Program-made: the position numbers and the translations under genes
The notes under the pieces: model-generated
Told to the model about the DNA's origin: nothing
Database searches by the model: none
What the model saw: the letters and a program-made list of their open reading frames with translations, nothing else
Assembly (NCBI RefSeq): GCF_027856955.1
Contig: NZ_JAPSMD010000010.1
Location: forward strand, 1-45,869
Reading direction: 5' to 3'
Length of the DNA stretch: 45,869 nt
From: Falsiroseomonas oryzae
GTDB lineage: Bacteria; Pseudomonadota; Alphaproteobacteria; Acetobacterales; Acetobacteraceae
Shown here: positions 5,492-41,169 of the stretch, one piece after another
Layout: every line of letters begins with the position of its first letter
Numbering within the stretch: the first letter of the stretch is position 1

Positions 5492-5498
5492 GGCGATC

Positions 5499-7564: not shown

Positions 7565-7575
7565 GGTCGCGCGCC

Positions 7576-8703: not shown

Positions 8704-8740
8704 GGGGCCAGCCGCTGCGGAAGCCGAGTCGGGACGCGGC

Positions 8741-10252: not shown

Positions 10253-10324
10253 CGCATGCTCCCCCTGAGCGCAGGCGGGCAGACTAGGTGGACGCGATGC
10301 CGCGCACCTTGCGCCGCATCAAGT

Positions 10325-10348: not shown

Positions 10349-10356
10349 CCCGGGAC

Positions 10357-11781: not shown

Positions 11782-11803
11782 CGAGATGCTCCCGCGTGCC
11801 TGT

Positions 11804-13552: not shown

Positions 13553-13762
13553 CGCCCTGTTCCTGCCCTGCGCATCGCTTCCGGCAGCTCAGGCTGGCAC
13601 CGGCGCGCACGGCAGGGAAGCCGGCGCGCGGGCGTTTTCGTGGGCGGCACCTCTGGTCAGTGCCATCCCGGCTGGCGCATGCTGCGACGGCACGGCGCGG
13701 CGCGAGGTGCCGCCCCATCGGGCTGCGGGCCCGGATGCATGGCGTCGAGGAGCCTGGACGAG

Positions 13763-24489: not shown

Positions 24490-24957
24490 CTGCACGCAAC
24501 CGTTGAGATCGCTGCTCGCATCGATAGCCGCCTCGAACGGCTGGGGCTATCCGCCGAAGAGGCCGACCGGCTGGCCGGGCTGCCACAGGGCAGCGTCGCC
24601 GCGCTGGCTCGGGGCGAGGGCCCCTTGCCCCGTGGCGCGGCCCTGCGCCGCCTGGCGGTCGCGCTCGATGTGGGGGAGGAGTTCCTGCTCGGCCTCGAGC
24701 CCGGCGACCTGATCCCTGCCGACATGCTGCAGGATCCGCAGGGCGAATTGGGCCTGCCGGCGCCGGACGAGGAGGCACTGCTGCGCCAGTATCGCCGGCT
24801 CGACGTGCCGACGCGCGCCGCCGTGCTGCTGCTGGTCACCCGCGCCGCCGGGCCCGAGCCGGAGCCCGACAGGCCACCGCACGCCGCGCGCCGCTCGGCT
24901 GGCCGCTCGGGCAGGGCGGCGCTAGCATTGCCGCAGCGCGGGGAGGGCACGGGATGA
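24490..24957 (+). CDS. XRE-family HTH regulator with a non-AUG start
   Basis: No in-frame ATG begins this protein. I chose CTG 24490 because GGAGA lies seven bases upstream, giving about 155 residues; GTG 24376 would give 193. The helix-turn-helix is at about residues 8-60: ARIDSRLERLGLSAEEADR, then LAGLPQGSVAALARGEG, then LRRLAVALDVGEEFLLGL. This matches the Cro/C1 (XRE) spacing, including the rG...L..LA.aL.v..e.LL pattern. After a linker, EEALLRQYRRLDVPTRAAVLLLV resembles the small C-terminal helices common in such regulators. Its stop overlaps the ATG of the next gene by 4 bases, so it is probably co-translated with the amidohydrolases and may sense their substrate. Confidence 0.65.
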   Translation: MHATVEIAARIDSRLERLGLSAEEADRLAGLPQGSVAALARGEGPLPRGAALRRLAVALDVGEEFLLGLEPGDLIPADMLQDPQGELGLPAPDEEALLRQYRRLDVPTRAAVLLLVTRAAGPEPEPDRPPHAARRSAGRSGRAALALPQRGEGTG

Positions 24958-26039
24958 GACTTCCGCTGGCGGGCGGCATCGACTGCGACGTCCACATCGC
25001 GCCGCCTTCCATGCGCGCCCTGCTGCCGCATCTCGATGCCTATTGGCGCGAGCAGATGGTGAATCGCGGGCTGGACCGCGTCGATTTCACGCTCGCGAGC
25101 GCTCGCCCCCGCCTGCCCATCGCGGCGCGGCCGGACAGCCGGGGGAATGGCGGCGAACTCGACACGCTGCGCGCCCGGCTGCTGGACCCGCTGCAACTCC
25201 GGACCGCGATCTGCCACGCGCTGCACGGCGCGATCGCGCTGCACACCGAGGACATGGCCGCCGCGCTGTGCCGGGCGGTGAACGACTGGGTCGCCGCCGA
25301 ATGGCTGGACCGGGAGCCGCGGCTGCGCGGCTCCATCCTGCTGCCGCTGCAGAACGTGGAACTCGCCGTGGCGGAGATCGAGCGCCGTGCCGCGGACCAG
25401 CGCTTCGTGCAGGTGCTTGCGCTGGCCATGGTGGACCAGCCGCTCGGCCGGCGGCACTACTGGCCGGTCTGGGCCGCGGCGGAGCGGCACGGCCTGCCGC
25501 TGGCCATCCATGCCGGCAGCCTGTTTCGCCACGCGCCCTCGGCAACGGGTTGGCCATCCTTCCATGTGGAGGACCACGTGCTGCAGGCGCAGGCCTTCGA
25601 CGCGCAACTGGCCAGCCTCATCGCGGAGGGCGCGTTCCAGAAATTCGCCGCCCTGAAGGTGGTGCTGCTGGAGAGCGGGCTGACCTGGCTGCCCACCTTC
25701 ATCTGGCGGATGAACAAGATCTGGCGTGGGCTGCGGGCGGAGGTGCCCTGGGTCAAGCAGCCGCCTGGCGACATCATCCGCGACCGCGTTCGTGTCACGC
25801 TGCAGCCGGTGGATGCGCCGGACGACCCGCAGGTGCTGGCGCGGACCCTGGATCACATCGGCGCCGAGCGCATGCTGCTGTTCTCCTCGGACTGGCCGCA
25901 CTGGCACGACGACCGGCCCGACCCGATCCCGGACGGCGTGCCGGACGCGCTGGCGCGCCGGATGCTGCTGGACAATCCCGCCGAGACCTATCCGCGCCTG
26001 TCGCTGCCCGCGGCTCGCGCCACGGAGGCAGCGCGATGA
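24954..26039 (+). CDS. ACMSD-like amidohydrolase (Amidohydro_2), first of a pair
   Basis: This 361-residue TIM-barrel metallohydrolase or decarboxylase has the metal-binding start GGIDCDVHIAP, with DxH where other members have HxH. The next histidine is in LAIHAGSLF and the late aspartate in LFSSDWPHWHDD. The Amidohydro_2 family includes nonoxidative decarboxylases such as ACMSD, 5-carboxyvanillate and gamma-resorcylate decarboxylase, as well as hydrolases. Overlaps on both sides (ATGA) tie it to the XRE gene and to a related amidohydrolase. Compared with its neighbour it lacks the longer glycine-rich HVGGVPGHP loop, so the two may have different substrates or form a heteromer. Confidence 0.9.
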   Translation: MRLPLAGGIDCDVHIAPPSMRALLPHLDAYWREQMVNRGLDRVDFTLASARPRLPIAARPDSRGNGGELDTLRARLLDPLQLRTAICHALHGAIALHTEDMAAALCRAVNDWVAAEWLDREPRLRGSILLPLQNVELAVAEIERRAADQRFVQVLALAMVDQPLGRRHYWPVWAAAERHGLPLAIHAGSLFRHAPSATGWPSFHVEDHVLQAQAFDAQLASLIAEGAFQKFAALKVVLLESGLTWLPTFIWRMNKIWRGLRAEVPWVKQPPGDIIRDRVRVTLQPVDAPDDPQVLARTLDHIGAERMLLFSSDWPHWHDDRPDPIPDGVPDALARRMLLDNPAETYPRLSLPAARATEAAR

Positions 26040-27142
26040 GCACGAACACGCTGGAGCGCAGCGCGGTGGCCGCGAAGCCGAAGCTCTCTCTCGTCGATTG
26101 CGACATCCATCCGAACCTGAAGTCGGAGGCGGAGCTGTTCCCCTTCATGGAACGGCGCTGGGTGGAGCACGCGCAGCAGTTCGGCCCGAACAACCACCAG
26201 GGCCTGGCCTACACGCTGCAGCATCCGCGCTTCCAGCCGGCCGTCTCGCGGGCGGATGCCTGGCCGCCGGGGGGCGGGCCGCCGGGCTCGGACCTCGACT
26301 TCCTGCGCTCCCACCACCTGGACGCGCATGGCATCGCGCATGGCCTGCTGATGCTGTTGCGCCCGACCGGGTGCGACGAGCGCAACCTGGACTTCGCCGC
26401 CGCGCTCTGCGCCGCGGCGAATGACTGGCAGCGCGAATGCTGGGTGAAGCCGGAACCGCGGCTGCATGGCGGCATCATGATCCCGCAGGAGGATCCGGCC
26501 GCCGCGGTGAAGGAGATCGAGCGCTGTGCCCGCACCGGCGGCTTTGCGCAGGTGAACTTCCCGCCGCGCGCGCTGGAGCCGCCGGGACGGCGCCGCTACT
26601 GGTCGATCTACGAGGCCGCGGTGCATCACGGCTTCCCGGTGGGCCTGCATGTCGGCGGCGTGCCCGGCCACCCCACCACCGGCGCCGGCATGCCGACCTA
26701 CTACCTGCAAGAGCACCACTCCAACATGCCGGGGATGCAGGCGGTGGTGTCCAGCTTCGTCTTCGAAGGCGTGTTCGAACGCCTGCCGGAGCTGCGCATC
26801 GTGCTGATCGAGGGCGGCTTCGCCTGGTCGCCGGCGCTGTGCTGGCGGATGGACCGCGCCTGGCGACTAATGCGCGCGGAGGTTCCGCAGGTGCCCCGGC
26901 CGCCATCCGAATACGTGCGCGACCACGTCTACTACACCACCCAGCCGATCGAGGAGCCCGACGATCCCGCGCATCTCGGCGAGATCATCGACTGGATCGG
27001 GCACGAGCGGATCATGTTCTCCACCGACTACCCGCACTGGGATTTCGACGATCCGCGCTATGCCTTCCGCACGAAGCTGACCGAGGCGCAGCGCGCCGCG
27101 ATCTTCGGTGGCAACGCCCGCGCCCTCTACCGCCTGCCATGA
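26036..27142 (+). CDS. ACMSD-like amidohydrolase (Amidohydro_2), second of a pair
   Basis: The protein has 368 residues and starts at ATG 26036 inside the previous stop; the longer upstream frame is a shadow. It begins the barrel with LVDCDIHPN (DxH), has the central HVGGVPGHPTTGAG histidine loop, then LEGGFAWSPALCWRMD and the late STDYPHWDFDDPRYAF with the metal/catalytic Asp. This form is common among predicted TIM-barrel hydrolases of the family. It is paralogous to the preceding gene, sharing the same segment order (WLPTFIWRM versus WSPALCWRM; SDWPHW versus TDYPHW). Its stop overlaps the Rieske gene start. The chemistry (decarboxylation or hydrolysis) is not determinable here. Confidence 0.92.
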   Translation: MSTNTLERSAVAAKPKLSLVDCDIHPNLKSEAELFPFMERRWVEHAQQFGPNNHQGLAYTLQHPRFQPAVSRADAWPPGGGPPGSDLDFLRSHHLDAHGIAHGLLMLLRPTGCDERNLDFAAALCAAANDWQRECWVKPEPRLHGGIMIPQEDPAAAVKEIERCARTGGFAQVNFPPRALEPPGRRRYWSIYEAAVHHGFPVGLHVGGVPGHPTTGAGMPTYYLQEHHSNMPGMQAVVSSFVFEGVFERLPELRIVLIEGGFAWSPALCWRMDRAWRLMRAEVPQVPRPPSEYVRDHVYYTTQPIEEPDDPAHLGEIIDWIGHERIMFSTDYPHWDFDDPRYAFRTKLTEAQRAAIFGGNARALYRLP

Positions 27143-27552
27143 GCCGCCACATCGTCGCCACGGTGGACGAGATTGCGCCCGGCAGCTCGAAGCTCGTCAC
27201 CGTGAAGGGGCGCGAGATCGCGGTGTTCAACGTGAAGGGCGAGTTCTTCGCGCTGTTCAACCGCTGCCCGCATGAGGGCGCGCCGCTCTGCAAGGGGCAG
27301 GTCGTCAGCCTGGTGGAATCCGACGAGCCCGGCACCTACCGCATGTCGCGCCAGGGCGAGCTGCTGCGCTGCCCCTGGCATGGCTGGGAGTTCGACATCC
27401 GCACGGGCCAGTCGTACTGCGACCCGGCGAATACCTGGGTGCGGAAATTCGCCGTGGCGGTGGAACCGGGCGAGCGCCTGGCCAAGGGCCCCTATGTCGC
27501 GGAGACCTTTCCGGTCTCCGTCGAGCAGGACTACCTCGTCATCGAGATGTAG
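27139..27552 (+). CDS. Small Rieske [2Fe-2S] protein
   Basis: This 137-residue protein consists of little more than a Rieske domain. Cluster ligands are Cys43 and His45 (CPHEGAPLCKG) and Cys78 and His81 (CPWHGWEFD). The loop between the two halves is long and contains SDEPGTYRMSRQGELL, unlike the compact ferredoxin at 32743-33069. It ends the amidohydrolase operon with a 4-base overlap, eight bases before a convergent Bug gene. It probably passes electrons to an oxygenase; the nearest is the Rieske oxygenase at 28707. Why an electron carrier is coupled to two amidohydrolases is unclear. Confidence 0.92.
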   Translation: MSRHIVATVDEIAPGSSKLVTVKGREIAVFNVKGEFFALFNRCPHEGAPLCKGQVVSLVESDEPGTYRMSRQGELLRCPWHGWEFDIRTGQSYCDPANTWVRKFAVAVEPGERLAKGPYVAETFPVSVEQDYLVIEM

Positions 27553-27560: not shown

Positions 27561-28556
27561 CTATGCCGGCGGGCGCGCCCCATAGGTGCGAGCGATCTCG
27601 GCCAGCCGGTCGTGCAAGCTGCGCAGGTCGGCCGCGAAGCGTTCCGGCGTGGACGGGCGCGGGATCATGCCGAAATCGGCCAGGCGCTGCCGGATCGCCG
27701 GCTCCTGGATGATCTCCTGGATCAGCCCGGAGATCCGGCTGCGCAGCGCGTCGGGCATGCCCTTCCAGCCGCAGAAGCCGGGGAATCCCTCCACCTCCAG
27801 GCCGGGGAAGCCGGCCTGCGCCACGGTCGGCGTTTCGGGCGCGGCGGGCGAGCGCACGGCATTGGTCACCGCCAGCACGCGCAGCTTCCCCTCCCGCACG
27901 AAGGGCAGCAGGTTGGTGGTTAGGGGCATCACCGCCATGTCCACGCGGCCCTCCGCGGTATCGGTCGTGGCTGCGGTCGTCGTGCGGTAGTTGACGAAGC
28001 TCATGTCGAGCCCGCTGCGGCGCAGTTCCGCGTTGGTCAGCAGATAGGTCGCGCCCGGCGCGGAACACCAGGTATGCCGACCGGGATTGGCGCGCACGCG
28101 CTCGAACAGTTCGGCCATGGTGGTGGCCGGGAAGCGGCTGTTCACTGCATAGGCCAGGAAGTCCGTGGCGATCGGCGCGATCGGCACCAGGTCCGTCCAG
28201 GTGTCGTAGGTCAGGTTCTGCATGACCAGCGGCGTCGTCGTGATCGCGCCCGCATGGGTCAGGAACAGCGCGCTGCCGGGTGGCGCCTGCACGAAGGCCT
28301 GGATGGCGATGACGCCCTCCGCCCCCGGCCGCGCCTCCACCGGGAAGGGGCGACCGAGCCGGGCCGCCAGCGCGTCGGCGACCAGCCGGCCCATCACGTC
28401 GGTGGAGCCCCCGGGCGTGCCGGCGGAGATGACGCGGACGGGGCCTTCCGGCCAGTTCGCCTGCGCCGACGCGCCGCCCGCCAGCAATAGGCCGGGCAGG
28501 GCGAGCGCGGCGCGGCGGCCGATGCCGGCGCGGCTGCCGGTCTCTTGGTCGGTCAT
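27561..28556 (-). CDS. Bug/TctC-family tripartite tricarboxylate transporter binding protein (1 of 4)
   Basis: This 331-residue periplasmic binding protein starts at ATG 28556, eight bases after AGGAGG. The leader GIGRRAALALPGLLLAGGASA has twin arginines. The mature part has the Bug pattern WPEGPVRVISAGTPGGSTDVMGRLVADAL, then FLTHAGAI and a late APETPTVAQAGFPGLEVEGF. Bug proteins bind carboxylates through their backbone and pass them to TctA/TctB channels or act as sensors; no tctA or tctB is in the window. The usual VENRxGAGG is VEARPGAEG here, so it is the most divergent of the four. It is divergent from the Rieske oxygenase operon. Confidence 0.9.
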   Translation of the reverse strand: MTDQETGSRAGIGRRAALALPGLLLAGGASAQANWPEGPVRVISAGTPGGSTDVMGRLVADALAARLGRPFPVEARPGAEGVIAIQAFVQAPPGSALFLTHAGAITTTPLVMQNLTYDTWTDLVPIAPIATDFLAYAVNSRFPATTMAELFERVRANPGRHTWCSAPGATYLLTNAELRRSGLDMSFVNYRTTTAATTDTAEGRVDMAVMPLTTNLLPFVREGKLRVLAVTNAVRSPAAPETPTVAQAGFPGLEVEGFPGFCGWKGMPDALRSRISGLIQEIIQEPAIRQRLADFGMIPRPSTPERFAADLRSLHDRLAEIARTYGARPPA

Positions 28557-28706: not shown

Positions 28707-29993
28707 ATGCTGCGCCAGGAGCAGAACGAGCTGCTGACCCGGACCGGCCCCGGCACGCCGATGGGGCAGCTGTTCCGCAGCTACTGGATCCCCGCCCTGC
28801 TGGCCGAGGAACTTCCGGAGGACGACTGCCCGCCGGTCCGCGTGAAGCTGCTCGGCGAACGCCTGCTCGCAGTGCGCGACAGCGCCGGGCGGCTCGGGCT
28901 GATCGACGAGTTCTGCGCCCATCGCGGCGTCTCGCTATGGTTCGGCCGCGTGGAGGAAGGCGGCATCCGCTGCCCCTATCACGGCTGGAAATACGATGTG
29001 ACGGGCCAATGCACCGAGGTGCCGTCCGAGCCGGACGAGAACGGCTTCTGCCGGAAGATCAGGCTGGCGTCCTATCCGCTCATCCGGCGTGGCGACATCC
29101 TCTGGACCTACATGGGCCCGAAGGAGACGACGCCGCCCGAGCCGGAATGGGAATTCGCGCTTGTTCCGCCGGAGCAGACCTTCACCTCCAAGCGCCTGCA
29201 GGAATGCAACTGGCTGCAGGCGATGGAGGGCGGGATCGACAGTTCCCACGTCTCCTGGCTGCACCGCGGGGCGCTGTCCTCCGACCCGCTGTTCAGGGGC
29301 GCGAAGGGCAACCAGTACAACCTGAAGGATGCGAAGCCCGTCTTCGAGGTGGTGGAGGCGCCGGGCGGCCTGTTCATCGGTGCCCGGCGCAACGCGGAGG
29401 AGGGCCGCTACTACTGGCGCATCACGCCCTGGGTGATGCCGTCCTTCACCATGGTGCCGCCGCGCGGCGACCACCCCGTGCACGGCCATTTCTGGATTCC
29501 CATCGACGACGAGAATTGCTGGGCCTGGAGCTTCGACTACCACCCCGTCCGCGCGCTGACCGCCGAGGAGCGCCAGGCCATGAAGGACGGCCACGGCATC
29601 CATGTGCGCTACGTGCCCGGCACCTATCGGCCGCTGGCCAACAAGGACAACGACTACCTGATCGACCGCGCGGCACAGAAGCGCGGCGAGACCTATTCCG
29701 GCGTTGCGGGCATCGCCATGCAGGATGCCTCCCTGCAGGAAAGCATGGGCCCCATCGTGGACCGCCGGAAGGAGAACCTGGTCTCCACCGACAACGGCAT
29801 CATCATGGCCCGCCACCGGCTGATGCGCGCGGCGAAGGTGCTGGCTGAGAAGGGGGTGCTGCCGCCAGGCCGCGATCCCGCGCATCAGCGCGTGCGCTCC
29901 GCCGCCGTGATCCTGCCGCCAGACCAGGCCTTCGGCGAGGCCGCGAAGGAGGATCTCAGCGTCCGTCCCGGCCTGCACCACAGCACCGTCTGA
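28707..29993 (+). CDS. Rieske non-heme iron oxygenase, alpha subunit
   Basis: This 428-residue oxygenase component has its Rieske cluster ligands at Cys70/His72 (CAHRGVSLWFG) and Cys89/His92 (CPYHGWKYD). The mononuclear iron site is in EGGIDSSHVSWLH: Asp178, His181 and His186, the classic D-x2-H-x4-H. Length and order resemble phthalate 4,5-dioxygenase-like, alpha-only enzymes; no beta-subunit gene is adjacent. Such enzymes hydroxylate or cis-dihydroxylate aromatic rings, or O/N-demethylate, in the cytoplasm. ATG 28707 has GAGGAGG upstream. It heads an operon with a GR-type reductase, a Rieske ferredoxin and a PdxA/TphB-like dehydrogenase, so an aromatic-acid cis-diol pathway is likely. Confidence 0.94.
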   Translation: MLRQEQNELLTRTGPGTPMGQLFRSYWIPALLAEELPEDDCPPVRVKLLGERLLAVRDSAGRLGLIDEFCAHRGVSLWFGRVEEGGIRCPYHGWKYDVTGQCTEVPSEPDENGFCRKIRLASYPLIRRGDILWTYMGPKETTPPEPEWEFALVPPEQTFTSKRLQECNWLQAMEGGIDSSHVSWLHRGALSSDPLFRGAKGNQYNLKDAKPVFEVVEAPGGLFIGARRNAEEGRYYWRITPWVMPSFTMVPPRGDHPVHGHFWIPIDDENCWAWSFDYHPVRALTAEERQAMKDGHGIHVRYVPGTYRPLANKDNDYLIDRAAQKRGETYSGVAGIAMQDASLQESMGPIVDRRKENLVSTDNGIIMARHRLMRAAKVLAEKGVLPPGRDPAHQRVRSAAVILPPDQAFGEAAKEDLSVRPGLHHSTV

Positions 29994-29998
29994 CCACG

Positions 29999-30499
29999 AT
30001 GCCCTCCGAGAGCGCGCGCGCCAGCACGGCCGCCGAGGCGCGGTTCCGCGTCCAGGCGCCGAACTCCGTGCCGCGCAGCGTGGTGGTGGTGGCGCTCGAT
30101 GGCCCGGGTGCGGACGCCGCCGCCGATCTCGCGGCACGCGCGTGGCGCGGCGCGGCCTTCTGGCATGCGCGCGACTTCGCGCCTGCGCAAGCGAGCCGTC
30201 TGGAAGGCTTCCTGGCCGATCTCGCGGGCTGCACGCAGCGTCTGGTGGAGGTGGTGGAGGCCGCCGACCTGGTCGTGCTGCTGACCGGGCCCGCCGGCAC
30301 CGAGGGGGCGGCTCTGCCGGCGATTGCTGAAGCCGCGGCCGCGCGGCGCGTCACGGTGATCGGCGTGGTGGTCGCCAGCGAGCCAGGCGCTTCCGCCCTG
30401 TCACGGAGCCTTGCCGCGCTGCGGCCGCATGTCGCCATGCTCGTCCGCGCGCAGGATCCCGACTACGCGGCGGCGATGCTGGAGGCATTGCGCGCCTGA
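29999..30499 (+). CDS. Unrecognised 166-residue protein in the oxygenase operon
   Basis: I do not recognise a family. The chain looks like a single alpha/beta domain. A strand (RSVVVVALDGPG) and helix (ADAAADLAARAW) come first, then a helix-rich middle (ASRLEGFLADLAGCTQRLVEVVE). Next is strand-loop-helix (DLVVLLTGPAGTEGAALPAI), strand (VTVIGVVVASEPG) and a C-terminal helix (DYAAAMLEALRA). The glycine/threonine loop after DLVVLLT recalls the T4 loop of FtsZ/tubulin-fold GTPases, but the overall match is weak and the protein is far too short. It lies 5 bases after the oxygenase gene and its stop overlaps the reductase start (TGATG), so it should be made with them and may be an accessory factor. 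Confidence 0.75.
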   Translation: MPSESARASTAAEARFRVQAPNSVPRSVVVVALDGPGADAAADLAARAWRGAAFWHARDFAPAQASRLEGFLADLAGCTQRLVEVVEAADLVVLLTGPAGTEGAALPAIAEAAAARRVTVIGVVVASEPGASALSRSLAALRPHVAMLVRAQDPDYAAAMLEALRA

Positions 30500-31710
30500 T
30501 GCGCCGCACCGTGGTGATCATCGGGGCAGGCCAGGCCGGCGGCCGCATGGCGGAGGCGCTGCGCCAGCGCGGCAGCGATGCGCGCATCCTGCTCGTCGGG
30601 GACGAGCCCGAGCCGCCCTATGAGCGCCCGCCCCTGTCGAAGGAGGTGCTGGCGGACGCTTCGGCGGAGGTCGCGGCCCGTCTTGGAGGCGGAGAGCCGC
30701 ATTGGCGTTCGCTCGACGTCGAGCTCATGACGGGGCTGCGTGCCACCGGGCTGGACCGCGCGGCGCGGCGCGTCGTGCTGAGCGACGGGGGCGCGCTGGG
30801 CTACGACACGCTGGTGCTCGCCACCGGTTCGCGGGCGCGGCAGTTGGCACTGCCGGGCACCACCGTGCCGGTGCTCGCCTTGCGGAGCCTTGCCGATGCG
30901 CGCGCCCTGCGCGGGCATCTCGGCCCCGGTCGCACCGTTCTGCTGCTCGGCGGCGGCGTGATCGGGCTCGAAGTGGCGGCAAGCGCGACCGCGCGCGGGG
31001 CATCCGCGGTGGTGGTCGAGGCCGCGCCGCGCCTCATGTCGCGTTGCGCCTCACCCTTCTTCGCCGACCGGCTACTGGCCATGCATCGTGCGCGGGGCGT
31101 CGCCGTGCATCTCGGCGCGCGGCTGGCGCGTGTGGAGGGCCGTGTCGCGACGCTGTCGGACGGCACCCGGGTGGAAGCGGATCTCGTGCTGGTCGGCATC
31201 GGCGCCGTGGCGAATGACGAGGTCGCAGCCGCGTCCGGGCTTCCCACCCGGGATGGCATCCTGGTCGATGGGCATGGCCGCACGGCCGACCCGAGCGTGC
31301 TGGCGGTGGGCGAGGTTGCCCGGCATCCCCTGGCGCGCTTCGGCATCGCCGACATCCGCCAGGAGAGCTGGCGTCACGCCGATTCGCACCCGCGCGCGGT
31401 CGCGGCGGCCCTGCTGGGCGCGACGGCCGCCGCCTATGACGAGGTCCCTGGCTTCTGGTCCGACCAGCATGGCGAGCGCTTCCTGGTGGAAGGCCTGCCA
31501 GGGCGCGGCCAGCACGAGGTGCTGCGCGACGCGGACGGCCCGAGGCCCGTCGCCTTCCATCTGGACGCGGAGGGCGCGGTGGTCGGTGCCGCGACGCTCG
31601 GCGATACGCGCGCCATGGCGGTGGCGCGCCGGCTGATCGCCGCCCGCGCCCGGCCCGATCCGGCCCGGCTTGCGGATGCCGGGGCAGACCTGCGCGCGCT
31701 GCTGCGCTAG
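30499..31710 (+). CDS. FAD-dependent ferredoxin reductase (BphA4-like, GR type)
   Basis: This 403-residue flavoprotein moves electrons from NAD(P)H to a Rieske ferredoxin. The FAD-binding site is VVIIGAGQAGGRMAEAL at the N-terminus, followed by PPYERPPLSKEV, a signature of oxygenase-coupled ferredoxin reductases. The NAD-binding GxGxxG is VLLLGGGVIGLEVA. The second FAD motif is in TADPSVLAVGEVA; the usual GD is GE here. The C-terminal reductase domain follows RQESWRHADSHPRAVAAALLG. Its ATG overlaps the stop of the 166-residue gene. It should serve the ferredoxin encoded at 32743 and the oxygenase at 28707. Confidence 0.92.
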   Translation: MRRTVVIIGAGQAGGRMAEALRQRGSDARILLVGDEPEPPYERPPLSKEVLADASAEVAARLGGGEPHWRSLDVELMTGLRATGLDRAARRVVLSDGGALGYDTLVLATGSRARQLALPGTTVPVLALRSLADARALRGHLGPGRTVLLLGGGVIGLEVAASATARGASAVVVEAAPRLMSRCASPFFADRLLAMHRARGVAVHLGARLARVEGRVATLSDGTRVEADLVLVGIGAVANDEVAAASGLPTRDGILVDGHGRTADPSVLAVGEVARHPLARFGIADIRQESWRHADSHPRAVAAALLGATAAAYDEVPGFWSDQHGERFLVEGLPGRGQHEVLRDADGPRPVAFHLDAEGAVVGAATLGDTRAMAVARRLIAARARPDPARLADAGADLRALLR

Positions 31711-31740
31711 ATGCGGGTGGCACGAAGGGAGGGCGCAGGC

Positions 31741-32733
31741 ATGACGCAGCGCAGACCGTACCGTCCGACACGGCGCGCCCTGTTCGCGGTGGGTGGCGGC
31801 GCGCTGCTGGCGCGGCCAGCCCTTGCCCAGACGGGCGCTTGGCCGAACCGCACGGTACGCGTCATCGCACCTTTCGTGCCGGGCGGCAGTGCGGACACGC
31901 TCGGCCGGCTGGTGGCGCAGGAACTGACGACCACGCTCGGCCAGTCCTTCGTGGTGGAGAACCGTGCCGGCGCCGGCGGCGTGGTGGGCAGCCAGCAGGT
32001 CGCGCGCGCCGCGCCGGACGGCTACACCTTCGTCATCTCCGGCATCGCCAGCCATGTGGTCGCACCGGTGGTCAACCCGAACGCAGGCTTCGACCCGCTG
32101 CGCGACTTCACCCATGTCGCCTTCCTCGGCGGGCCGCCCACCATCCTGGTCGTGGGCGCTCAGCTGCCGGTGCACAACCTCGCTGAGTTCATCGCCCTGG
32201 TCCGCGCGGGACGACCGATGAGCTACGGCTCGCCCGGCGCCGGCACGCATGGCCATCTGTTCGGCGTGGCCTTCGCACGCGCCAGCGGCCTGCCCTTGGA
32301 ACACGTGCCGTATCGCGGTGCAGGCGGCGCCGTCGCCGACCTGATCGCCGGCAACCTGCCTGCCGCCTCCATCACGCTGGCATCGTCGCTGGCCGGGATC
32401 CGCGCCGGCCAGTTGCGGGCGCTGGCGGTCACCACGCCGCGACGCACCGCGGTGGTGCCCGATGTGCCGACCTTCGCCGAGCAGGGGTTCCCCGACCTGG
32501 TCGGCATCACCTGGTTCGGCCTCTCCGGCCCTGCCGGCCTGCCCGAGCCCATCGTCACCACGCTGAACCGGGAAGTCGTGCGCATCATGGCCGGCCCGCG
32601 CATGCGCGAGCGCCTGGCAGCCGACTCCTTCGAGTCCGGCGACTACTCCGCGCCGGCCTTCACGCGCTTCGTCGAGAGCGAGATCGCGCGCTGGGCGCCG
32701 GTTGCGCGCGCCGCCGGACTTTCCGCCGAATAG
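31741..32733 (+). CDS. Bug/TctC-family binding protein (2 of 4), inside the oxygenase operon
   Basis: This 330-residue periplasmic carboxylate receptor starts at ATG 31741 with GGGAGG upstream; ATG 31711 would add ten residues without a ribosome site. The leader TRRALFAVGGGALLARPALA ends at ALA-Q. The core pattern is NRTVRVIAPFVPGGSADTLGRLVAQEL, VVENRAGAGGVVGSQQVARAAPDGYTF, and PYRGAGGAVADLIAGNL. Its location between reductase and ferredoxin, with a 30-base gap before and 9 after, suggests it captures the oxygenase substrate, as the Bug protein TphC does for terephthalate. Membrane partners must be encoded elsewhere. Confidence 0.93.
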   Translation: MTQRRPYRPTRRALFAVGGGALLARPALAQTGAWPNRTVRVIAPFVPGGSADTLGRLVAQELTTTLGQSFVVENRAGAGGVVGSQQVARAAPDGYTFVISGIASHVVAPVVNPNAGFDPLRDFTHVAFLGGPPTILVVGAQLPVHNLAEFIALVRAGRPMSYGSPGAGTHGHLFGVAFARASGLPLEHVPYRGAGGAVADLIAGNLPAASITLASSLAGIRAGQLRALAVTTPRRTAVVPDVPTFAEQGFPDLVGITWFGLSGPAGLPEPIVTTLNREVVRIMAGPRMRERLAADSFESGDYSAPAFTRFVESEIARWAPVARAAGLSAE

Positions 32734-32742
32734 GACCGATCC

Positions 32743-33069
32743 ATGACGCTGCTGGCGCTCTGCGCGACCGACCACGTGCCTGAAGGCGAAGCCCGCCGGA
32801 TCGAGGCCGGGGGCTTCGACTACGCCGTCTACAACCTGGGCGGCGTGTTCTTCGTGACGCAGAACCTCTGCACGCATGGGCCGGGAAATCTGGGCGAAGG
32901 CTTCGTGGAGGGCGACGAGATCGAGTGCGACTTCCACCAGGGCCGCTTCGACATCCGCACCGGCCAGCCGACAGCGCCCCCCTGCACGGAGCCGCTGACC
33001 GTGTGGGACGTGACGGTGCGGGACGGACAGGTCTGCATCGATCCCGCCGCGGGCCGGAAGACGTCGTGA
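32743..33069 (+). CDS. Rieske-type ferredoxin of ring-hydroxylating oxygenase
   Basis: This compact 108-residue electron carrier has [2Fe-2S] ligands Cys43/His45 (CTHGPGNLGEG) and Cys62/His65 (CDFHQGRFDIRTGQP). The RFDIRTG segment and the following PPCTEPL are typical of ferredoxins that feed ring-hydroxylating dioxygenases; the common HGG is HQG here. It should take electrons from the upstream GR-type reductase and give them to the Rieske oxygenase. Its stop overlaps the next gene's GTG start by 4 bases, so expression with the PdxA/TphB-like enzyme is coupled. Confidence 0.94.
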   Translation: MTLLALCATDHVPEGEARRIEAGGFDYAVYNLGGVFFVTQNLCTHGPGNLGEGFVEGDEIECDFHQGRFDIRTGQPTAPPCTEPLTVWDVTVRDGQVCIDPAAGRKTS

Positions 33070-34064
33070 CCGGCCTGCCCGCCCTGGCGATCGCGCTGGG
33101 CGATCCTGCCGGCATCGGGCCGGAGATCGCGCTGAAGACCGCGCTGTCGGAGGAGGTGAGGCGCTTCTGCCGCCCCGTGCTGGTGGGCGATCGGCAGGCG
33201 GTCGCACTTGCGGCCGGCAGTTTCGCGCCGGATGTCGCGCTGCGCCCCGTGATGTCGCCACGCGACGCCGCGCCGGTGCCTGGCTGCGTGGACCTGCTGG
33301 AGGTTCCGGCCTTCGCGCCGGGCGAACTCGTGCCCGGCAGCGTCACCCCCGGGAATGGTCGCGCCGCGCTGGCCGCCTGCGCCGCCGCCATCCGCGCGGC
33401 GCAGGCGGGGGAAGCGCATGCGGTGCTCGCGGCGCCGATGAACCAGACCGCGATCGCTGCCGCGGGCATCGCCTTCGACGGCTATCCCGGCTTCGTCGCG
33501 CAGCAGACCGGCCTGCCCCCCGAGGACGTCTTCCTGATGCTGTGCTTCGACAGGACGCGCATCGTGCATGTCACGCTGCACGTCTCCGTCGCCCAGGCGT
33601 TGCGGCTGCTGACCCGCCAACGCATCGCGCGCGCGATCACCTCGACCGACGTCGCGCTGCGCCGGCTGGGGATTGCGCATCCGCGTATCGCCGTCGGCGG
33701 CCTCAACCCGCATGCGGGGGAGGGCGGGCTGTTCGGCGAGGAGGACCTCACGGTCACGACCCCCGCCATCGACGATGCGCGGGCCGCGGGCGTGCAGGTG
33801 GACGGTCCCTTCGGCGCGGACACCATGTTCCACAAGGCGGGCTACGACGCCTTCGTCGTCATGCTGCACGACCAGGGACACATCGCCGCGAAGATGGTGG
33901 CGGCGCATCGCACGGCGGGCCTCTCCATCGGCAGCCCGATCCTGTTCTCCTCGGTCGCGCACGGTTCGGGCCACGACATCGTCGGCCAGGGGAAGGCGGA
34001 TCCGACGGCGATGATCGAGGCGGCGCGGCGACTCTGCGGGGCGGAGACGGGACTGCTGCGCTAG
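33066..34064 (+). CDS. PdxA-family dehydrogenase, PdxA2/TphB-like
   Basis: The 332-residue protein starts at GTG 33066 in a GTGA overlap. PdxA-fold metal ligands are present at His172 (HVTLHVS), His216 (GGLNPHAGEGG) and His268 (VMLHDQGH), with the N-terminal LGDPAGIGPEI. The HDQGHIAAK form points to the PdxA2 branch rather than vitamin-B6 PdxA. TphB, which oxidatively decarboxylates the cis-dihydrodiol of terephthalate, is a PdxA homologue. As the last gene of a Rieske dioxygenase operon, this protein could do the same for a carboxylated cis-diol. A role in 4-hydroxythreonine-phosphate metabolism is less likely given the context. Confidence 0.9.
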   Translation: MTGLPALAIALGDPAGIGPEIALKTALSEEVRRFCRPVLVGDRQAVALAAGSFAPDVALRPVMSPRDAAPVPGCVDLLEVPAFAPGELVPGSVTPGNGRAALAACAAAIRAAQAGEAHAVLAAPMNQTAIAAAGIAFDGYPGFVAQQTGLPPEDVFLMLCFDRTRIVHVTLHVSVAQALRLLTRQRIARAITSTDVALRRLGIAHPRIAVGGLNPHAGEGGLFGEEDLTVTTPAIDDARAAGVQVDGPFGADTMFHKAGYDAFVVMLHDQGHIAAKMVAAHRTAGLSIGSPILFSSVAHGSGHDIVGQGKADPTAMIEAARRLCGAETGLLR

Positions 34065-34073: not shown

Positions 34074-34781
34074 CTACGCGCCCGGCGCCACGCCGTCGCG
34101 CAGCGTCGCCAGCCAGGACAGGACCTCCGTGCTGGGCAGCACGTCGGCGAACTGGCGGTCCATGTCGAACAGCGCGACGGCGTGGCTCAGCGGAATGCGG
34201 TCGAACACCGCTTCCTGCGGCACGATGGCGCGCAGGTTGTAGGACGCGGCGTCGAACACCGTGGCCTGCACGCAGTTGCTGGTGGCGCCGCCGGTGACGA
34301 TCACCGTGTCCACGCCGCGGTCCAGCAGATAGCCAAGCAGGGGCGTGCCGTGGAACGCCGAGGGCTTCTTCTTGACCAGGACGATGTCGCGCGCGTGGGG
34401 CGTAAGCTCCGGCGCGAGTTCCGCGCCGGGGGTGCCGGTCAGGCACCAATGCTGGCTCTGCAGGAGGTCGCGCTTGCGGGCATAGATGCCGATGTCGCGT
34501 CCATCCGGATCCAGCTCGAAGCGCGTGAAGAAGCACGGCACGGCAGCGGCCTGTGCAGCGCGCGTCAGGCGCACGATCTCGGCCAGCGCCGCGCGCCCGA
34601 TGGCGCCGCAGGATGACGGCCAGGCGGCATCCTCGCCCTCGGCGCCGACCATGTAGCGCTGCGCGTCGATCACCAGCACGGCCGGACGCCGACCGAATCC
34701 CATGCGACGTCCGAATCGCCCCTTCGCCAGCACGGCGTGATCGGCCTCGGTGAGGAAGGCGTCCCATGGACGTTCGGTCAC
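34074..34781 (-). CDS. Isochorismatase-fold cysteine hydrolase, N-carbamoylsarcosine amidase-like
   Basis: This 235-residue cytoplasmic amidase starts at GTG 34781 after AAAGGA. The catalytic triad is visible: Asp39 (VLVIDAQ), Lys in VLVKKKPSAF (137-139) and Cys170 (GGATSNCVQATV). The later EAVFDRIPLSH and LFDMDRQFADV segments recall N-carbamoylsarcosine amidase and maleamate amidohydrolase rather than true isochorismatase. Likely activity is hydrolysis of a carbamoyl or amide group. It is convergent with the oxygenase operon (9-base gap) and divergent from a Bug gene. Together with the PuuE-like enzyme it hints at ureide or carbamoyl breakdown, but no other purine-pathway genes are present. 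Confidence 0.9.
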   Translation of the reverse strand: MTERPWDAFLTEADHAVLAKGRFGRRMGFGRRPAVLVIDAQRYMVGAEGEDAAWPSSCGAIGRAALAEIVRLTRAAQAAAVPCFFTRFELDPDGRDIGIYARKRDLLQSQHWCLTGTPGAELAPELTPHARDIVLVKKKPSAFHGTPLLGYLLDRGVDTVIVTGGATSNCVQATVFDAASYNLRAIVPQEAVFDRIPLSHAVALFDMDRQFADVLPSTEVLSWLATLRDGVAPGA

Positions 34782-34858
34782 GACCTGTCCTTTCGTTGAC
34801 CCCGCGGCCTCGCATTGCCTAGCCTCGCGGCCCGGACGTCAAGGGCGGGAGGCACGCG

Positions 34859-35830
34859 ATGACGACGCGACGTGGCATGCTGGGTGCGGCGGCCCTGGTG
34901 CTGGCGCGGCCCGCCCTGGCGCAGGGCACCGGCGACTGGCCGAACCGCCAGATCCGCCTGATCTCACCCTTCCCGCCCGGCGGTGCGGCCGACCTCACGG
35001 CCCGCATCATGGCGGAGGAACTCACCACCGCGCTGCGGCAGACCGTCTTCGTCGAGAACCGCACCGGCGTCGGCGGCGCGGTCGGGACGGAGGCTGCGGC
35101 GCGCAGCACGCCGGACGGCTACACCTTCGTCCTCGCCTCCACAGGCCCGTTCGCCATCAATCCCGGCCTGTTCCGCCTGAACATCGACCCGTCGCGCGAC
35201 CTGGCGCCGGTGGCGATGGTGGCGATCGTGCCCTCGATCTTCGTGGTGAACCCGGCCGTGCCGGCGCAGAACATGGCGGAGCTGATCGCGCTGGCGCGGC
35301 AGCGCCCGGGCCAGCTCTCCTATGCCTCCGGCGGCAACGGCACGGCGCAGCACCTGTTCGGGGAGCTGCTGAAGCAGATGGCGAATCTCGACATCCAGCA
35401 CGTGCCCTATCGCGGCGGCGGCCCGGCGATGACGGACACCATCGCGGGCCGCGTGCAGATCCTGTGCGACACGCTGCCGCTGGCGCTGCCGCATATCCGC
35501 GAAGGCCGCGTGCGCGCCGTCGCCGTCACCACGGCGCAGCGTCATCCCGCGGTGCCGGAGGTGCCGACGGTCGCGGAATCCGGCGTGCCCGGCTACGAGG
35601 CGGTGGGCTGGTACGGCATCGCCGCGCCGGCCGGCGTGCCGGCGCCAATCGTCGAGCGCGTGAACGCCGTGGTGAACGAGCTGATCCAGCGCCCGGCGCT
35701 CGCCGCGCGGCTTTCCGGCCAGGGCGCCGATCCGCTGGCGATGACGCCGGCCGAGTTCGGCGCGCGGATCGAGCGCGACCGCGCGCGCTGGACGCAGGTG
35801 ATCCGCGACGCGCAGATCCGGCCGGACTGA
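34859..35830 (+). CDS. Bug/TctC-family binding protein (3 of 4)
   Basis: This 323-residue periplasmic receptor has leader TTRRGMLGAAALVLARPALA and cleavage ALA-Q. The Bug core is NRQIRLISPFPPGGAADLTARIMAEEL, VENRTGVGGAVGTEAAARSTPDGYTF, HVPYRGGGPAMTDTIAGRV and PEVPTVAESGVPGYEAVGWYGI. GGGAGG lies seven bases before ATG 34859. It is flanked by the divergent isochorismatase-fold amidase and the convergent PuuE-like gene, so its ligand may belong to that pair. No TctA/TctB partner is nearby. Confidence 0.93.
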   Translation: MTTRRGMLGAAALVLARPALAQGTGDWPNRQIRLISPFPPGGAADLTARIMAEELTTALRQTVFVENRTGVGGAVGTEAAARSTPDGYTFVLASTGPFAINPGLFRLNIDPSRDLAPVAMVAIVPSIFVVNPAVPAQNMAELIALARQRPGQLSYASGGNGTAQHLFGELLKQMANLDIQHVPYRGGGPAMTDTIAGRVQILCDTLPLALPHIREGRVRAVAVTTAQRHPAVPEVPTVAESGVPGYEAVGWYGIAAPAGVPAPIVERVNAVVNELIQRPALAARLSGQGADPLAMTPAEFGARIERDRARWTQVIRDAQIRPD

Positions 35831-35836
35831 GCTCGC

Positions 35837-36763
35837 CTACTCGTTCAGCCCCTTGCCGGGGTAGGGGTGGGTCGCGATCCAGTGCCGGGCGATCTCCGCG
35901 CGGCGCGCGAACCACACCTTGCCCTTGGCCTGCATGTGGTCCAGCAGGCGGATCAGCCCCAATGCGCGCGCCGGCTGGCCGGTGATGCGCGGATGCAGGC
36001 CGATCGACATCATGGTCGGCCGGTCCGCGGCGCCTTCCTCCCACAGCAGGTCGAAATGGTCGCGGCAGAAGGCGAACCACTGGTCGCTGTTGGCGACGCC
36101 CGCGAAGTATTTCGAGTCGTTCACCGTCTGCGTGTAGGGCACCACCAGGTGCGGCTGGCCCTCCACCGTGGTCCAGAACGGCAACTCGTCGCCGTAGTAG
36201 TCGCTGTCGTAGAGAAAGCCGCCATGCTCGACGACCAGGCGGCGCGTGTTCACGCTCGGGCCGTAGCGGCAGTACCAGCCATCCGGCCGGCGGCCGAGCG
36301 TGCGCTTCAGGGACTGCACGGCGCGCGCGATATGCTCGCGCTCCTCCGCCTCGTCCAGTTCGAAATGCTTCACCCAGCGCCACCCATGCGAGCAGACGTC
36401 GTGGCCGGATTCGCGGACCGCCTCGGCCATCTCCGGGTTGCGCTCCAGCGCCAGCGCGCAGGCGAAGATCGTCATCGGCAGGCCGCGCTGCTCGAAGATG
36501 CGCAGCACGCGCCAGGCGCCGACGCGGCTGCCGAACTCGAACAGGCTCTCCGCCGCCAGGTCGCGGCCGCGCGGGATCTGGTTGCGGCCATGCGCCTCGC
36601 TCAGGTTGGTCTCGCTGAACCCCTCGCCATCCTGCACCGAGGGCTCGGAACCTTCCTCGTAGTTGAGCACGAAGTTGACGGCGACATGCGCGCCGCCCGG
36701 CCAGCACGGATCGGGCGGGTTCGCCCCGTAGCCGATGAAATCGCGCGGCACCTCCCACGCCAT
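35837..36763 (-). CDS. Polysaccharide-deacetylase-fold allantoinase, PuuE-like
   Basis: The 308-residue protein is close in length to PuuE allantoinase (about 316). ATG 36763 has GGAGGAG upstream; the much longer frame beyond it is antisense to the CoA-transferase gene. PuuE-like segments are VNFVLNYEEGSEPSV, the metal-site HDVCSHGWRW, GWYCRYGPSVNTRRL and SIGLHPRITGQPAR. PuuE opens the hydantoin ring of allantoin without a classical amidohydrolase site. Relatives also deacetylate or hydrolyse other amides, so allantoin itself is only the best guess. It is convergent with the third Bug gene, with a 6-base gap. Confidence 0.88.
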   Translation of the reverse strand: MAWEVPRDFIGYGANPPDPCWPGGAHVAVNFVLNYEEGSEPSVQDGEGFSETNLSEAHGRNQIPRGRDLAAESLFEFGSRVGAWRVLRIFEQRGLPMTIFACALALERNPEMAEAVRESGHDVCSHGWRWVKHFELDEAEEREHIARAVQSLKRTLGRRPDGWYCRYGPSVNTRRLVVEHGGFLYDSDYYGDELPFWTTVEGQPHLVVPYTQTVNDSKYFAGVANSDQWFAFCRDHFDLLWEEGAADRPTMMSIGLHPRITGQPARALGLIRLLDHMQAKGKVWFARRAEIARHWIATHPYPGKGLNE

Positions 36764-36862
36764 CGCCGTCTCCTCCGCAGATTGACCCCTTAGGGCGGTG
36801 CCCATAGCTTTCCCCGCCGGCCGCCCTTCATGCAAGGCGCGGCCGCGGGAGGACAGGACGGC

Positions 36863-38107
36863 ATGGCGGACCGCGCGGGTCTTCGGCGGCGCGACTTCGA
36901 CCCCGCTGCGCGCGGCGCACTGGACGGGCTGCGGGTGGTGGACCTCTCCCGCCTCGTCGCCGGCAACATGCTGACCAAGGTACTCGCCGATCACGGGGCG
37001 GAGGTGGTGAAGGTGGAGCCTCCCGCCGGCGACAGCCTGCGCGCCTGGAAGGTGAAGGGCGTCGAGACCAGCTGGAAGACCTGGTGCCGCAACAAGCGCA
37101 GCATCTGCCTCGACCTGCGCGCCGCAGCGGGCGTGGAGGTGGTGCGGCGGCTGGCGGCCGACGCCGCGCTGTTCGTGGAAAGCTTCCGCCCCGGCGTGCT
37201 CGAGGAGATGGGCCTTTCGCCGGATGCGCTGCTCGCGGCCAATCCGCGCCTCGTCATTGTGCGCGTCTCCGGCTGGGGGCAGACCGGGCCGTTCAGCCAC
37301 AAGCCTGGCTTCGGCACGCTGGTGGAAGGCTATGCCGGTTTCGCCGCGCTGAACGGCTTCGCCGACCGCGAGCCGGTGCTGCCGCCGATGTTCATGGCGG
37401 ATGCCTATGCCGGCCTGTACGGCGCCTCCGCCGCGATGATCGCGCTGCGCCATGCGGAGACAACCGGGCAGGGGCAGGTGGTGGACCTCTCGCTGTTCGA
37501 GCCGCTCTTCGCCGTGCTGGAGCCGCAGATGGCGAACTGGCGCCTGACGCGCCAGGTCAAGCCGCGCACCGGCAGCCGCAGCACGAACACCGCGCCGCGC
37601 AACGCCTATCGCACGAAGGATGGCGGCTGGGTGGGCCTGTCCACCTCCACCCAGGCGGTGTTCGTCCGGCTGATGCGCAGCATCGGCCGGCCCGAACTGG
37701 CGGAGGATCCGCGCTTCCGCACCAACCCGGACCGGCTGCAGCACATCGAGGAGATCGATGGCGTGGTGCGCGACGCGATCGCGCGCATGACGCTGGACGA
37801 GGCGTTGGCGCAGTTCGACCGCGACGGCGTGACCATCGGCCCGATCATGGATGTGCGCGGCCTGGACGGCGACGCCTATGTCGCCGGACGGGAGGCGCTG
37901 ATCGAGGTGCCGGACGCGGAGATGCCCGGCGGCGTGCTGCCCATGCATGGCGAGGTGCCGCGTCTCTCCGCCACGCCCGGCATCCTGCGCAACCCGGCGC
38001 CGAGGCTGGGCGAGCACAATGCCGAGATCCTGCGGCCGCTGCTCGGCGCGGAGACCTTCGCGCGGTTGCAGCAGGCCGGGGTGATACTGGGTGGGGACGC
38101 GGCGTGA
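36863..38107 (+). CDS. CaiB/BaiF-family (class III) CoA-transferase, copy 1
   Basis: This 414-residue cytoplasmic enzyme moves CoA between carboxylic acids. The start is ATG 36863, nine bases after GGGAGG; ATG 36830 is in frame but less well supported. The N-terminal pattern is LDGLRVVDLSRLVAGNMLTKVLADHGAEVVKVEPP, then NKRSICLDLR and SGWGQTGPFSHKPGFG. Asp180 in PPMFMADAYAGL fits the catalytic aspartate that forms the acyl-enzyme anhydride. It is joined to the CitE-like gene by a TGATG overlap, suggesting activation of an acid that the lyase then cleaves, as in citramalyl- or methylmalyl-CoA pathways. Confidence 0.93.
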   Translation: MADRAGLRRRDFDPAARGALDGLRVVDLSRLVAGNMLTKVLADHGAEVVKVEPPAGDSLRAWKVKGVETSWKTWCRNKRSICLDLRAAAGVEVVRRLAADAALFVESFRPGVLEEMGLSPDALLAANPRLVIVRVSGWGQTGPFSHKPGFGTLVEGYAGFAALNGFADREPVLPPMFMADAYAGLYGASAAMIALRHAETTGQGQVVDLSLFEPLFAVLEPQMANWRLTRQVKPRTGSRSTNTAPRNAYRTKDGGWVGLSTSTQAVFVRLMRSIGRPELAEDPRFRTNPDRLQHIEEIDGVVRDAIARMTLDEALAQFDRDGVTIGPIMDVRGLDGDAYVAGREALIEVPDAEMPGGVLPMHGEVPRLSATPGILRNPAPRLGEHNAEILRPLLGAETFARLQQAGVILGGDAA

Positions 38108-38946
38108 TGCGTGTCTGGCGGTCCATGCTCTACGTGCCGGCCAACGTGCCGCGCTTCGTCGCGAAGGCGCCGACGGCCGGCGCGGATGCCGTGGTGCTGG
38201 ATGTCGAGGATTCGGTGCCGCACGACCGCAAGGCGGAGGCCCGCGCCGCGCTGGCCGACGCCGTGCCGATGGCACGCTCCGGCGGCGCGGCTGTGCTGGT
38301 GCGCGTCAACCGCCCGCTGCGGCTTGCCGTGCCCGATATCGAGGCGGCGGTTGCCGCGGGCGCGGATGGCATCCTGCTGACCAAGGCGATGGGTCCGGAC
38401 CACGTCGCGCTCGCGGCCGAGATCCTGGCGGAGGCGCCGCGCCCCATGCGCATCGTGCCGATGGTGGAGACTGCCGCCGCGGTGCCGAAGCTGTCGGAGA
38501 TCGCACGCGCCTCGCCCTTGGTCGCGGGCCTGCTCATCGGGGCGGAGGACCTGGCGCTCGAGTGCAACGCCGCCTCCGACGACGAGCTGATCGTGCTGGC
38601 CAAGCGGCAGATGGTGCTGGCGGCCTATGCGGCCGGTGTCGCGCCCTTCGGCACGCTCGGGACCGTCGCCGACTACCGCGACGCCGAGAAAGTGCGCGCC
38701 CTGGTCGCGCGCTCCCGGCGCTCTGGCTTCCTCGGCGCCACCTGCATCCACCCCGCGCTGGTGCCGATCCTGAACGAGGGCTTCTCGCCGACCGCGGAGG
38801 AGGTGGATCTGGCGCGCCGCCAGCTCGCGGCGGCGGCGGAGGCAGCGCGGGAAGGGCGCGGCAGCTTCACCGTGGATGGCCGCATGGTGGACGAGCCGAT
38901 CCTGATCCGCGCTCGGCGCATCCTGGCCCAGTCCGGCGGGGCTTGA
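38107..38946 (+). CDS. CitE-like CoA-ester lyase (HpcH/HpaI aldolase fold)
   Basis: The 279-residue enzyme starts at ATG 38107; GTG 38104 is an alternative. The CitE/malyl-CoA-lyase pattern is WRSMLYVPANVPRFVAKA, AVVLDVEDSVPHDRK, RIVPMVETAAAV, LLIGAEDLALE and GFLGATCIHPALVPILNEGF. The Glu of MVET and Asp of GAED match Mg2+ ligands of the family. These lyases split beta-hydroxyacyl-CoAs (malyl-, citramalyl-, beta-methylmalyl-CoA) to acetyl-CoA or propionyl-CoA plus an oxo-acid. Coupling to a CaiB CoA-transferase, with a hotdog hydratase nearby, fits such a route. The precise substrate is not visible. Confidence 0.92.
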   Translation: MRVWRSMLYVPANVPRFVAKAPTAGADAVVLDVEDSVPHDRKAEARAALADAVPMARSGGAAVLVRVNRPLRLAVPDIEAAVAAGADGILLTKAMGPDHVALAAEILAEAPRPMRIVPMVETAAAVPKLSEIARASPLVAGLLIGAEDLALECNAASDDELIVLAKRQMVLAAYAAGVAPFGTLGTVADYRDAEKVRALVARSRRSGFLGATCIHPALVPILNEGFSPTAEEVDLARRQLAAAAEAAREGRGSFTVDGRMVDEPILIRARRILAQSGGA

Positions 38947-38960
38947 GCCGCGGCGCGGTC

Positions 38961-41136: not shown

Positions 41137-41169
41137 GGACCGTGTCCTCCCCATTGTTCTCGTTGCCGG

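Follow-up and report, generated by a model that had tools for sequence, protein, structure and literature searches.

Which aromatic compound is attacked by the Rieske oxygenase system of Falsiroseomonas oryzae, and by how many proteins? The question is raised by an operon (28707-34064, + strand) located in a 45,869-nucleotide stretch of DNA (assembly GCF_027856955.1, contig NZ_JAPSMD010000010.1, positions 1 to 45,869; hereafter the window). A first-pass annotation, made from the letters alone, had recognized five genes in it, encoding an alpha-only oxygenase, a GR-type reductase, a Bug receptor, a Rieske ferredoxin and a PdxA-like dehydrogenase. All five were confirmed by translation as open frames with the boundaries given, and their families agree with Pfam and NCBIfam searches. 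A sixth gene (29999-30499, +, 166 aa), placed between the oxygenase and reductase genes and encoding an FtsZ-like protein, is the more unusual part of the operon, and was missed at that stage. In our reading, to which we assign a probability of about 0.6, the operon encodes a ring-hydroxylating system of three components that acts on an aromatic polycarboxylate, with the FtsZ-like protein as accessory or assembly subunit.

At E 0.001 the 29999-30499 product has no match among Pfam and NCBIfam families, its gene is labelled hypothetical protein in the annotated plasmids opened, and no report of an FtsZ-like partner of a Rieske oxygenase was found among the open-licence papers listed in literature searches. 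A profile built from 59 sequences of the protein (hereafter the partner) was compared with solved structures, and FtsZ filled the 47 best of 54 rows, with a best E of 3.6e-5 for the whole sequence and 0.0031 when restricted to the matched domain. Aligned by hhalign to 18 FtsZ sequences, the profile scored 95.8% (pairwise E 6.7e-9, 130 columns), the similarity covering residues 24-152; controls gave 0.4% against GR-type reductases and 0.1% against seven beta subunits, a value ruling out a beta-subunit homologue. The AlphaFold2 model of the protein (pLDDT 86.7, pTM 0.81) was aligned by VIA-align to FtsZ with Z 12.3 and a root-mean-square deviation of 3.5 over 130 residues, FtsZ structures occupying the first 44 of the 50 ranks shown. 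The partner thus shares predicted fold and profile similarity with the N-terminal GTPase domain of FtsZ, but features conserved terminal segments of its own, is linked to an oxygenase, and lacks both the GTP loop (G[AGS]GTG, GGGTGTG in FtsZ), missing in 69/69 partner sequences, and the second, C-terminal domain, residue 165 or 166 of the 166-aa model aligning near FtsZ residue 198. Profiles and model hence point to a relative of the FtsZ N-terminal domain without GTP loop; a working GTPase is ruled out by the missing loop. Only R17, R142, A163 and L164 are invariant in the 59 sequences, and no cofactor motif was recognized. Residues 3-26 are the best conserved stretch (mean top-residue frequency 0.66; 0.38-0.59 elsewhere), even though the model has a pLDDT of only 52-55 over residues 1-20, a combination that might suit a binding segment.

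The partner was searched by iterated profile next to the best 80 of at least 547 oxygenase relatives residing in genome contigs (71-88% identical to the window protein, nearly full length). It was found in 63 of the 80 loci, from Proteobacteria, Acidobacteria and Actinobacteria, and 58 of the 63 genes begin no more than 200 bp from where the oxygenase gene ends. The 17 loci without partner, two of which have less than 500 bases of downstream sequence, divide into eight from genomes with a strong match elsewhere (E <=3.2e-61; two beside an oxygenase copy, five beside a Rieske ferredoxin, one on a short stretch) and nine from genomes without any. Two loci, L051 and L059, belong to the same metagenome-assembled genome (MAG), which hosts two close oxygenase copies and the partner beside one alone, and in three Burkholderiaceae loci (L081, L087, L102) an alcohol-dehydrogenase-like gene is inserted between oxygenase and partner. 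Four of 14 same-genus genomes carry the gene, all four with the six-gene order kept, and ten do not. Over 69 loci, median identity is 36% for the partner and 74% for the oxygenase, and the distances of the two proteins are correlated (r 0.83; 0/1000 permutations as high).

Wider samples confirm that the partner is rare. The same draw of 395 genomes of the order was used for both proteins: the partner (E <=1e-8) was found in eight, always beside the oxygenase, and oxygenases scoring at least 826 bits in nine, including these eight; seven more genomes with weaker oxygenases (424-797 bits) have no partner. Among 398 genomes of the phylum the partner is found in F. oryzae only, and the same holds for strong matches among 289 genomes of the class. 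In the latter sample 38 genomes match the profile at E <=0.001, the 37 other than F. oryzae at 4e-6 to 1e-3; such weak matches were rejected as relatives: of 31 loci checked, taken from this and two other searches, 25 have the GGGTGTG of FtsZ within an open stretch of 325 residues (the motif was not seen in that check in L113, L114, L124, L129, L131 and L136). An initial search had given matches in 9 of 99 genomes, two of them weak (L008, L009) and not counted as relatives, larger stretches of both showing neither oxygenase nor profile match. With the partner as the only query, plasmids and phages yielded no match under the limits applied, a result reflecting sensitivity, because plasmids L098-L102 do carry the partner. 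So does Rhodococcus fascians pGS01 (L170; 7.5e-18). In two Rhodococcus plasmids, pGS01 (1995-14653) and L100 (12001-21464), the oxygenase and FtsZ-like genes lie close to a terephthalate-type operon of alpha, beta, PdxA and reductase genes. Altogether the partner is found in few genomes, and is closely linked to this clade of oxygenases.

The oxygenase (28707-29993, +, 428 aa; Pfam Rieske and LigXa_C) has Rieske ligands C70/H72/C89/H92, bridging D178 and iron ligands H181/H186, the last three residues being exactly those picked out earlier. Its best match among solved structures is 9INA (491.7 bits), followed by 7FHR (330.9) and 7FJL (238.8). 9INA is the isophthalate dioxygenase (IPDO, or IphA2; also 9IOY) of Comamonas testosteroni KF1 (PMC12445078), likewise an alpha-only enzyme, which aligns over 416 residues, shares the iron ligands and both carboxylate-binding residues, and is described there as cis-diol-forming. 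On sequence, IPDO is the nearest enzyme of known function. Demethylases, whose grouping with the oxygenase would have spoken against a diol product, are not its nearest relatives, and the comparison with terephthalate enzymes drawn by the first-pass annotation does not extend to the oxygenase, its closest known relative not being TphA2. The window protein does not fall inside the IPDO group proper. In a quick tree of 106 rows IPDO joins a Comamonas endophytica protein (support 100), the window protein resides in a separate group of 94 rows (99), and three Rhodococcus/Arthrobacter proteins stay together (96); the join between these groups is supported at just 83, and the tree has long deep branches. 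The gene clusters differ as well. IPDO relies on a single reductase, the window operon on a ferredoxin and a GR-type reductase; the IPDO-related C. endophytica cluster includes a Bug gene, as the window operon does, but its dehydrogenase is of the SDR family and its reductase of the PDR type, in place of the PdxA-like and GR-type proteins, and no FtsZ-like partner was found within 17 kb around its oxygenase gene.

Pocket residues bear on the choice of substrate. According to the IPDO study (PMC12445078), R234 and H257 bind isophthalate, and replacing either abolished activity; the pocket is shaped by G172, T175, V178, I246, F249, I294 and F333. There V178 and I294 are connected with excluding carboxylates in ortho and para position, and F249 and L198 are discussed in relation to ortho-carboxylates; a V178A/F249H double variant accepts phthalate and terephthalate too, V178A alone not phthalate. 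With L198 counted in, ten positions were compared, of which five are kept in the window oxygenase: G176 (G172), V182 (V178), R238 (R234), H261 (H257) and I298 (I294). The other five differ: S179 (T175), N202 (L198), V250 (I246), R253 (F249) and I336 (F333). S179, N202, R238, R253 and H261 are invariant in the 86 loci compared (two of which are duplicates), and IPDO positions 246, 294 and 333 vary slightly. This set suggests a meta-dicarboxylate bearing a further polar or acidic group as substrate, and the retained V182 and I298 would speak against simple phthalate or terephthalate. Dipicolinate, considered because of its likeness to isophthalate, gained no support from a literature search, which listed one unrelated paper, and is a candidate only.

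The last gene of the operon (33066-34064, +, GTG start; PdxA family) encodes the putative diol dehydrogenase. H172/H216/H268 are present as had been claimed, and align to the metal-site histidines of 4ATY, the terephthalate cis-diol dehydrogenase, which is the best solved match (252 bits), ahead of 8zj3 and its near-copies (222), PdxA2 2hi1 (196) and 1ps7 (136), which we take to be E. coli PdxA. In a tree of 24 rows, the window protein and ten associated relatives form a clade (100/99), which joins TphB-type enzymes; a branch with support 100/100 sets the two together apart from E. coli PdxA and from the other three F. oryzae copies, among which the copy of contig C393 joins E. coli PdxA (98/96). 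The parallel with TphB thus stands for this protein, which does not group in that tree with vitamin-B6 PdxA; the latter identity, envisaged earlier as an outcome fatal to the proposed pathway, fails on phylogeny because the protein groups with the TphB-type enzymes. TphB (4ATY; the RHA1 pRHL2 gene, PdxA in the record and presumably TpaB) is likewise a PdxA-family protein with metal-site histidines and Rieske-oxygenase linkage, and is sister on the tree; the window protein, 46% identical to the RHA1 protein, is in a clade of its own, and the oxygenase it accompanies has no beta subunit. Plasmid records matching the PdxA-like protein number 516; of five opened, four place the relative in alpha-beta oxygenase operons with a reductase, and the fifth is unannotated. 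By homology the enzyme is TphB-like rather than a housekeeping PdxA. TphB dehydrogenates the terephthalate diol with loss of CO2, and isophthalate is handled alike, as stated in PMC13040137; the window enzyme is probably a decarboxylating cis-diol dehydrogenase as well.

Electrons would be supplied by a GR-type FAD (flavin adenine dinucleotide) ferredoxin reductase (30499-31710, +, 403 aa; Pyr_redox_2 and Reductase_C) and a Rieske [2Fe-2S] ferredoxin (32743-33069, +, 108 aa; Rieske family). Both components, identified with Pfam and NCBIfam, are those of type IV in the 2008 scheme; no beta subunit gene was found by Pfam among the six genes of the operon, and type IV oxygenases are of the alpha-beta kind. 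In the scheme, groups with GR-type reductases are described as alpha-beta oxygenases (PMC2358900), and the combination of alpha-only oxygenase and GR-type reductase falls outside that description. The set, called uncommon by the first-pass annotation, is not unique in this clade, GR-type reductase and ferredoxin being found together in 13 of the 80 loci of the clade. Dicamba demethylase and LigX are other alpha-only systems with GR-type reductases.

The rest of the operon is a Bug/TctC-type periplasmic receptor gene (31711-32733, +; TctC), presumably for substrate uptake; here the parallel drawn earlier with TphC, itself a Bug protein, is supported. The junctions, in gene order, are a 5-nt gap, a 1-nt overlap, abutting ends, a 9-nt gap and a 4-nt overlap, and because of this tightness the six genes are regarded as one operon. 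A promoter scan gave no site, and a terminator scan one, with 0.8 expected by chance. Upstream (24954-27552) two tandem Amidohydro_2 proteins are followed by a second Rieske ferredoxin of 137 aa, whose two cluster motifs stand further apart; this group is parted from the operon by an opposite-strand Bug gene (27561-28553). Downstream (34077-40169) two family III CoA-transferases flank an HpcH/HpaI (citrate-lyase-like) gene, adjoined by an isochorismatase-type gene (34077-34781) and a polysaccharide-deacetylase-type gene (35840-36757), and two more Bug receptors are found at 34859-35827 and 40177-41154.

Genes flanking the oxygenase in the 80 loci were counted by grouping mechanically called frames into single-linkage clusters, which take their names from one tested member each. 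Counts are approximate, the clustering finding the partner in 55 loci, the profile in 63. Reductase type, ferredoxin position and dehydrogenase are variable around the oxygenase-partner pair. The ferredoxin is found in 42 loci, GR-type reductases in 21 and PDR-type reductases in 23, either one in 44 and never both in the same locus (0/80). Zn-type alcohol dehydrogenases (35 loci) and PdxA-like proteins (6) are accompanied by proteins similar to 4,5-dihydroxyphthalate decarboxylase (46) or LigK (14), and by cupin (35), alpha/beta hydrolase (35), PanB-like (30), EutA-like (29) and amidohydrolase (25) genes. A cupin weakly similar to gentisate-type dioxygenases and adjoining an EutA-like protein is common near the oxygenase, as in L099 (7682-10453). 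The decarboxylase-like protein tested matches 9jp7 (4,5-dihydroxyphthalate decarboxylase; 1.5e-83), and the LigK-like protein tested exceeds the NCBIfam cut-off. The F. oryzae genome has six decarboxylase-like homologues at 39-45% identity, plus a weak one, and one LigK above the cut-off; a search of it with the cupin gave no match, which by itself shows nothing. Such neighbours would fit a route leading from a dihydroxylated aromatic acid to 4-carboxy-4-hydroxy-2-oxoadipate.

Gene families suggest the order of reactions in the operon. The Bug receptor would capture the aromatic acid, and electrons would flow from NAD(P)H to the GR-type reductase, the Rieske ferredoxin and the IPDO-like oxygenase, which would add two cis-hydroxyls, one at a carboxylate-bearing carbon. 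The diol would then be oxidized by the TphB-type enzyme, and CO2 lost; the resulting catechol-type acid would probably be protocatechuate or one of its carboxylated analogues. The FtsZ-like protein may bind the oxygenase, or the oxygenase-ferredoxin pair, as accessory or assembly subunit, a role suggested by linkage and conservation. Uptake, cis-dihydroxylation and oxidative decarboxylation, proposed earlier for a carboxylated aromatic, are supported by homology for an aromatic polycarboxylate; the earlier interpretation as a whole is partly supported, and substrate class, reaction order, and contact and function of the FtsZ-like protein are all inferred. A precedent of comparable kind is NdmE, a protein of unrelated fold needed by a Rieske-type oxygenase in the NdmCDE caffeine N7-demethylase, as reported in PMC4408171. 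The fold is different, NdmC has no Rieske cluster of its own, whereas the window oxygenase has the Rieske motif, and NdmE is required by its oxygenase, the FtsZ-like partner being only a proposed subunit.

Several observations weigh against this reading. No contact between oxygenase and partner is shown by the single read-through chain modelled, whose low confidence (pLDDT 44.6) speaks neither way. IPDO was assayed with its reductase alone (PMC12445078); therefore the oxygenase fold as such needs no FtsZ-like partner. Nine of the 80 loci have no strong partner match in locus or genome; all nine are from MAGs of unstated completeness, one of which gives a weak match corresponding to FtsZ. G768, a genome from the sample of the order, lacks the partner despite a close oxygenase (887.8 bits). 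The correlation of distances is equally expected for genes merely travelling together. As to the fold, an unrelated GTPase, SelB, reaches Z 10.8 in VIA-align, and Foldseek places a flavoprotein first, a von Willebrand factor domain second and FtsZ third. As to the substrate, isophthalate itself may not be one, because the pocket differs at five of the compared positions. Finally, in five genomes (L139-L143) the partner lies divergently beside a Rieske ferredoxin, with no oxygenase in the 3.5 kb covered, as if the oxygenase had been lost from the usual ferredoxin-oxygenase-partner order.

These last genomes, together with the Foldseek ranking (4ici, a flavin mononucleotide-type flavoprotein, E 2.6e-4; FtsZ 6unx, 8.1e-4), could indicate that the partner is a catalytic or redox component, for example a shuttle that binds flavin or nucleotide, or an enzyme acting on the oxygenase product. 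This is a doubtful view: the operon is already provided with ferredoxin and reductase, both VIA-align and hhalign point to FtsZ, the partner evolves faster than the oxygenase, and its four invariant residues form no recognized cofactor motif. Equally hard to credit is a role outside the enzyme complex, in regulating the cluster at the transcriptional or post-translational level. IclR regulators are common in these clusters (32/80 loci), yet coexist there with the partner, and move, whereas most loci preserve the order of oxygenase and partner; no Pfam family is matched by the window protein, and its 59 relatives give only scattered weak matches, none shared by more than two members (best E 0.0016). 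A stand-in for the beta subunit, capping the alpha trimer where beta sits in TphA2A3-type enzymes, would be a special case of the accessory subunit favoured here. The gene directly follows the alpha gene, as beta does in TphB-type operons, and the size is similar (166 aa vs. 154-164 aa for the beta genes used); the lack of homology to beta subunits, and the closest solved relative being a plain alpha trimer (PMC12445078), make it improbable.

The operon may also be viewed as a plain isophthalate pathway whose electron carriers and dehydrogenase differ. No known oxygenase is nearer than IPDO, R238, H261, V182 and I298 match its R234, H257, V178 and I294, and the last two positions, which the IPDO study links to keeping out ortho and para carboxylates, are kept or similarly substituted. 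Against it are the changes from F249 to R253 and L198 to N202 in 86/86 loci, both at positions tied in that study to ortho-carboxylates, though the broadened variant needed V178A besides F249H. The decarboxylase-like gene of 46/80 loci would serve a step not needed for isophthalate, and the Comamonas cluster grouping with IPDO uses an SDR-family dehydrogenase and a PDR-type reductase. On balance the plain isophthalate pathway is rather unlikely, and the three-component system with an FtsZ-like subunit is preferred.

Pocket residues identical in 86/86 loci suggest one shared substrate. More tentatively, and as a possibility going well beyond the operon, the partner may belong to a family of FtsZ-derived, nucleotide-free subunits needed for assembly or electron delivery by an oxygenase clade spread over at least three phyla. 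The clade would act on a common natural aromatic polycarboxylate with two meta-carboxylates and an acidic or polar group held by Arg253/Asn202, in an unnamed soil pathway often including 4,5-dihydroxyphthalate-decarboxylase-like and LigK-type steps. Rieske oxygenases are well studied, yet a gene conserved beside one clade across phyla has been annotated merely as hypothetical. If the FtsZ-like protein is a subunit, leaving it out when enzymes of this clade are reconstituted would lead to failure or to misleading results, and a fold of the cytoskeleton would have been converted to the service of an enzyme.

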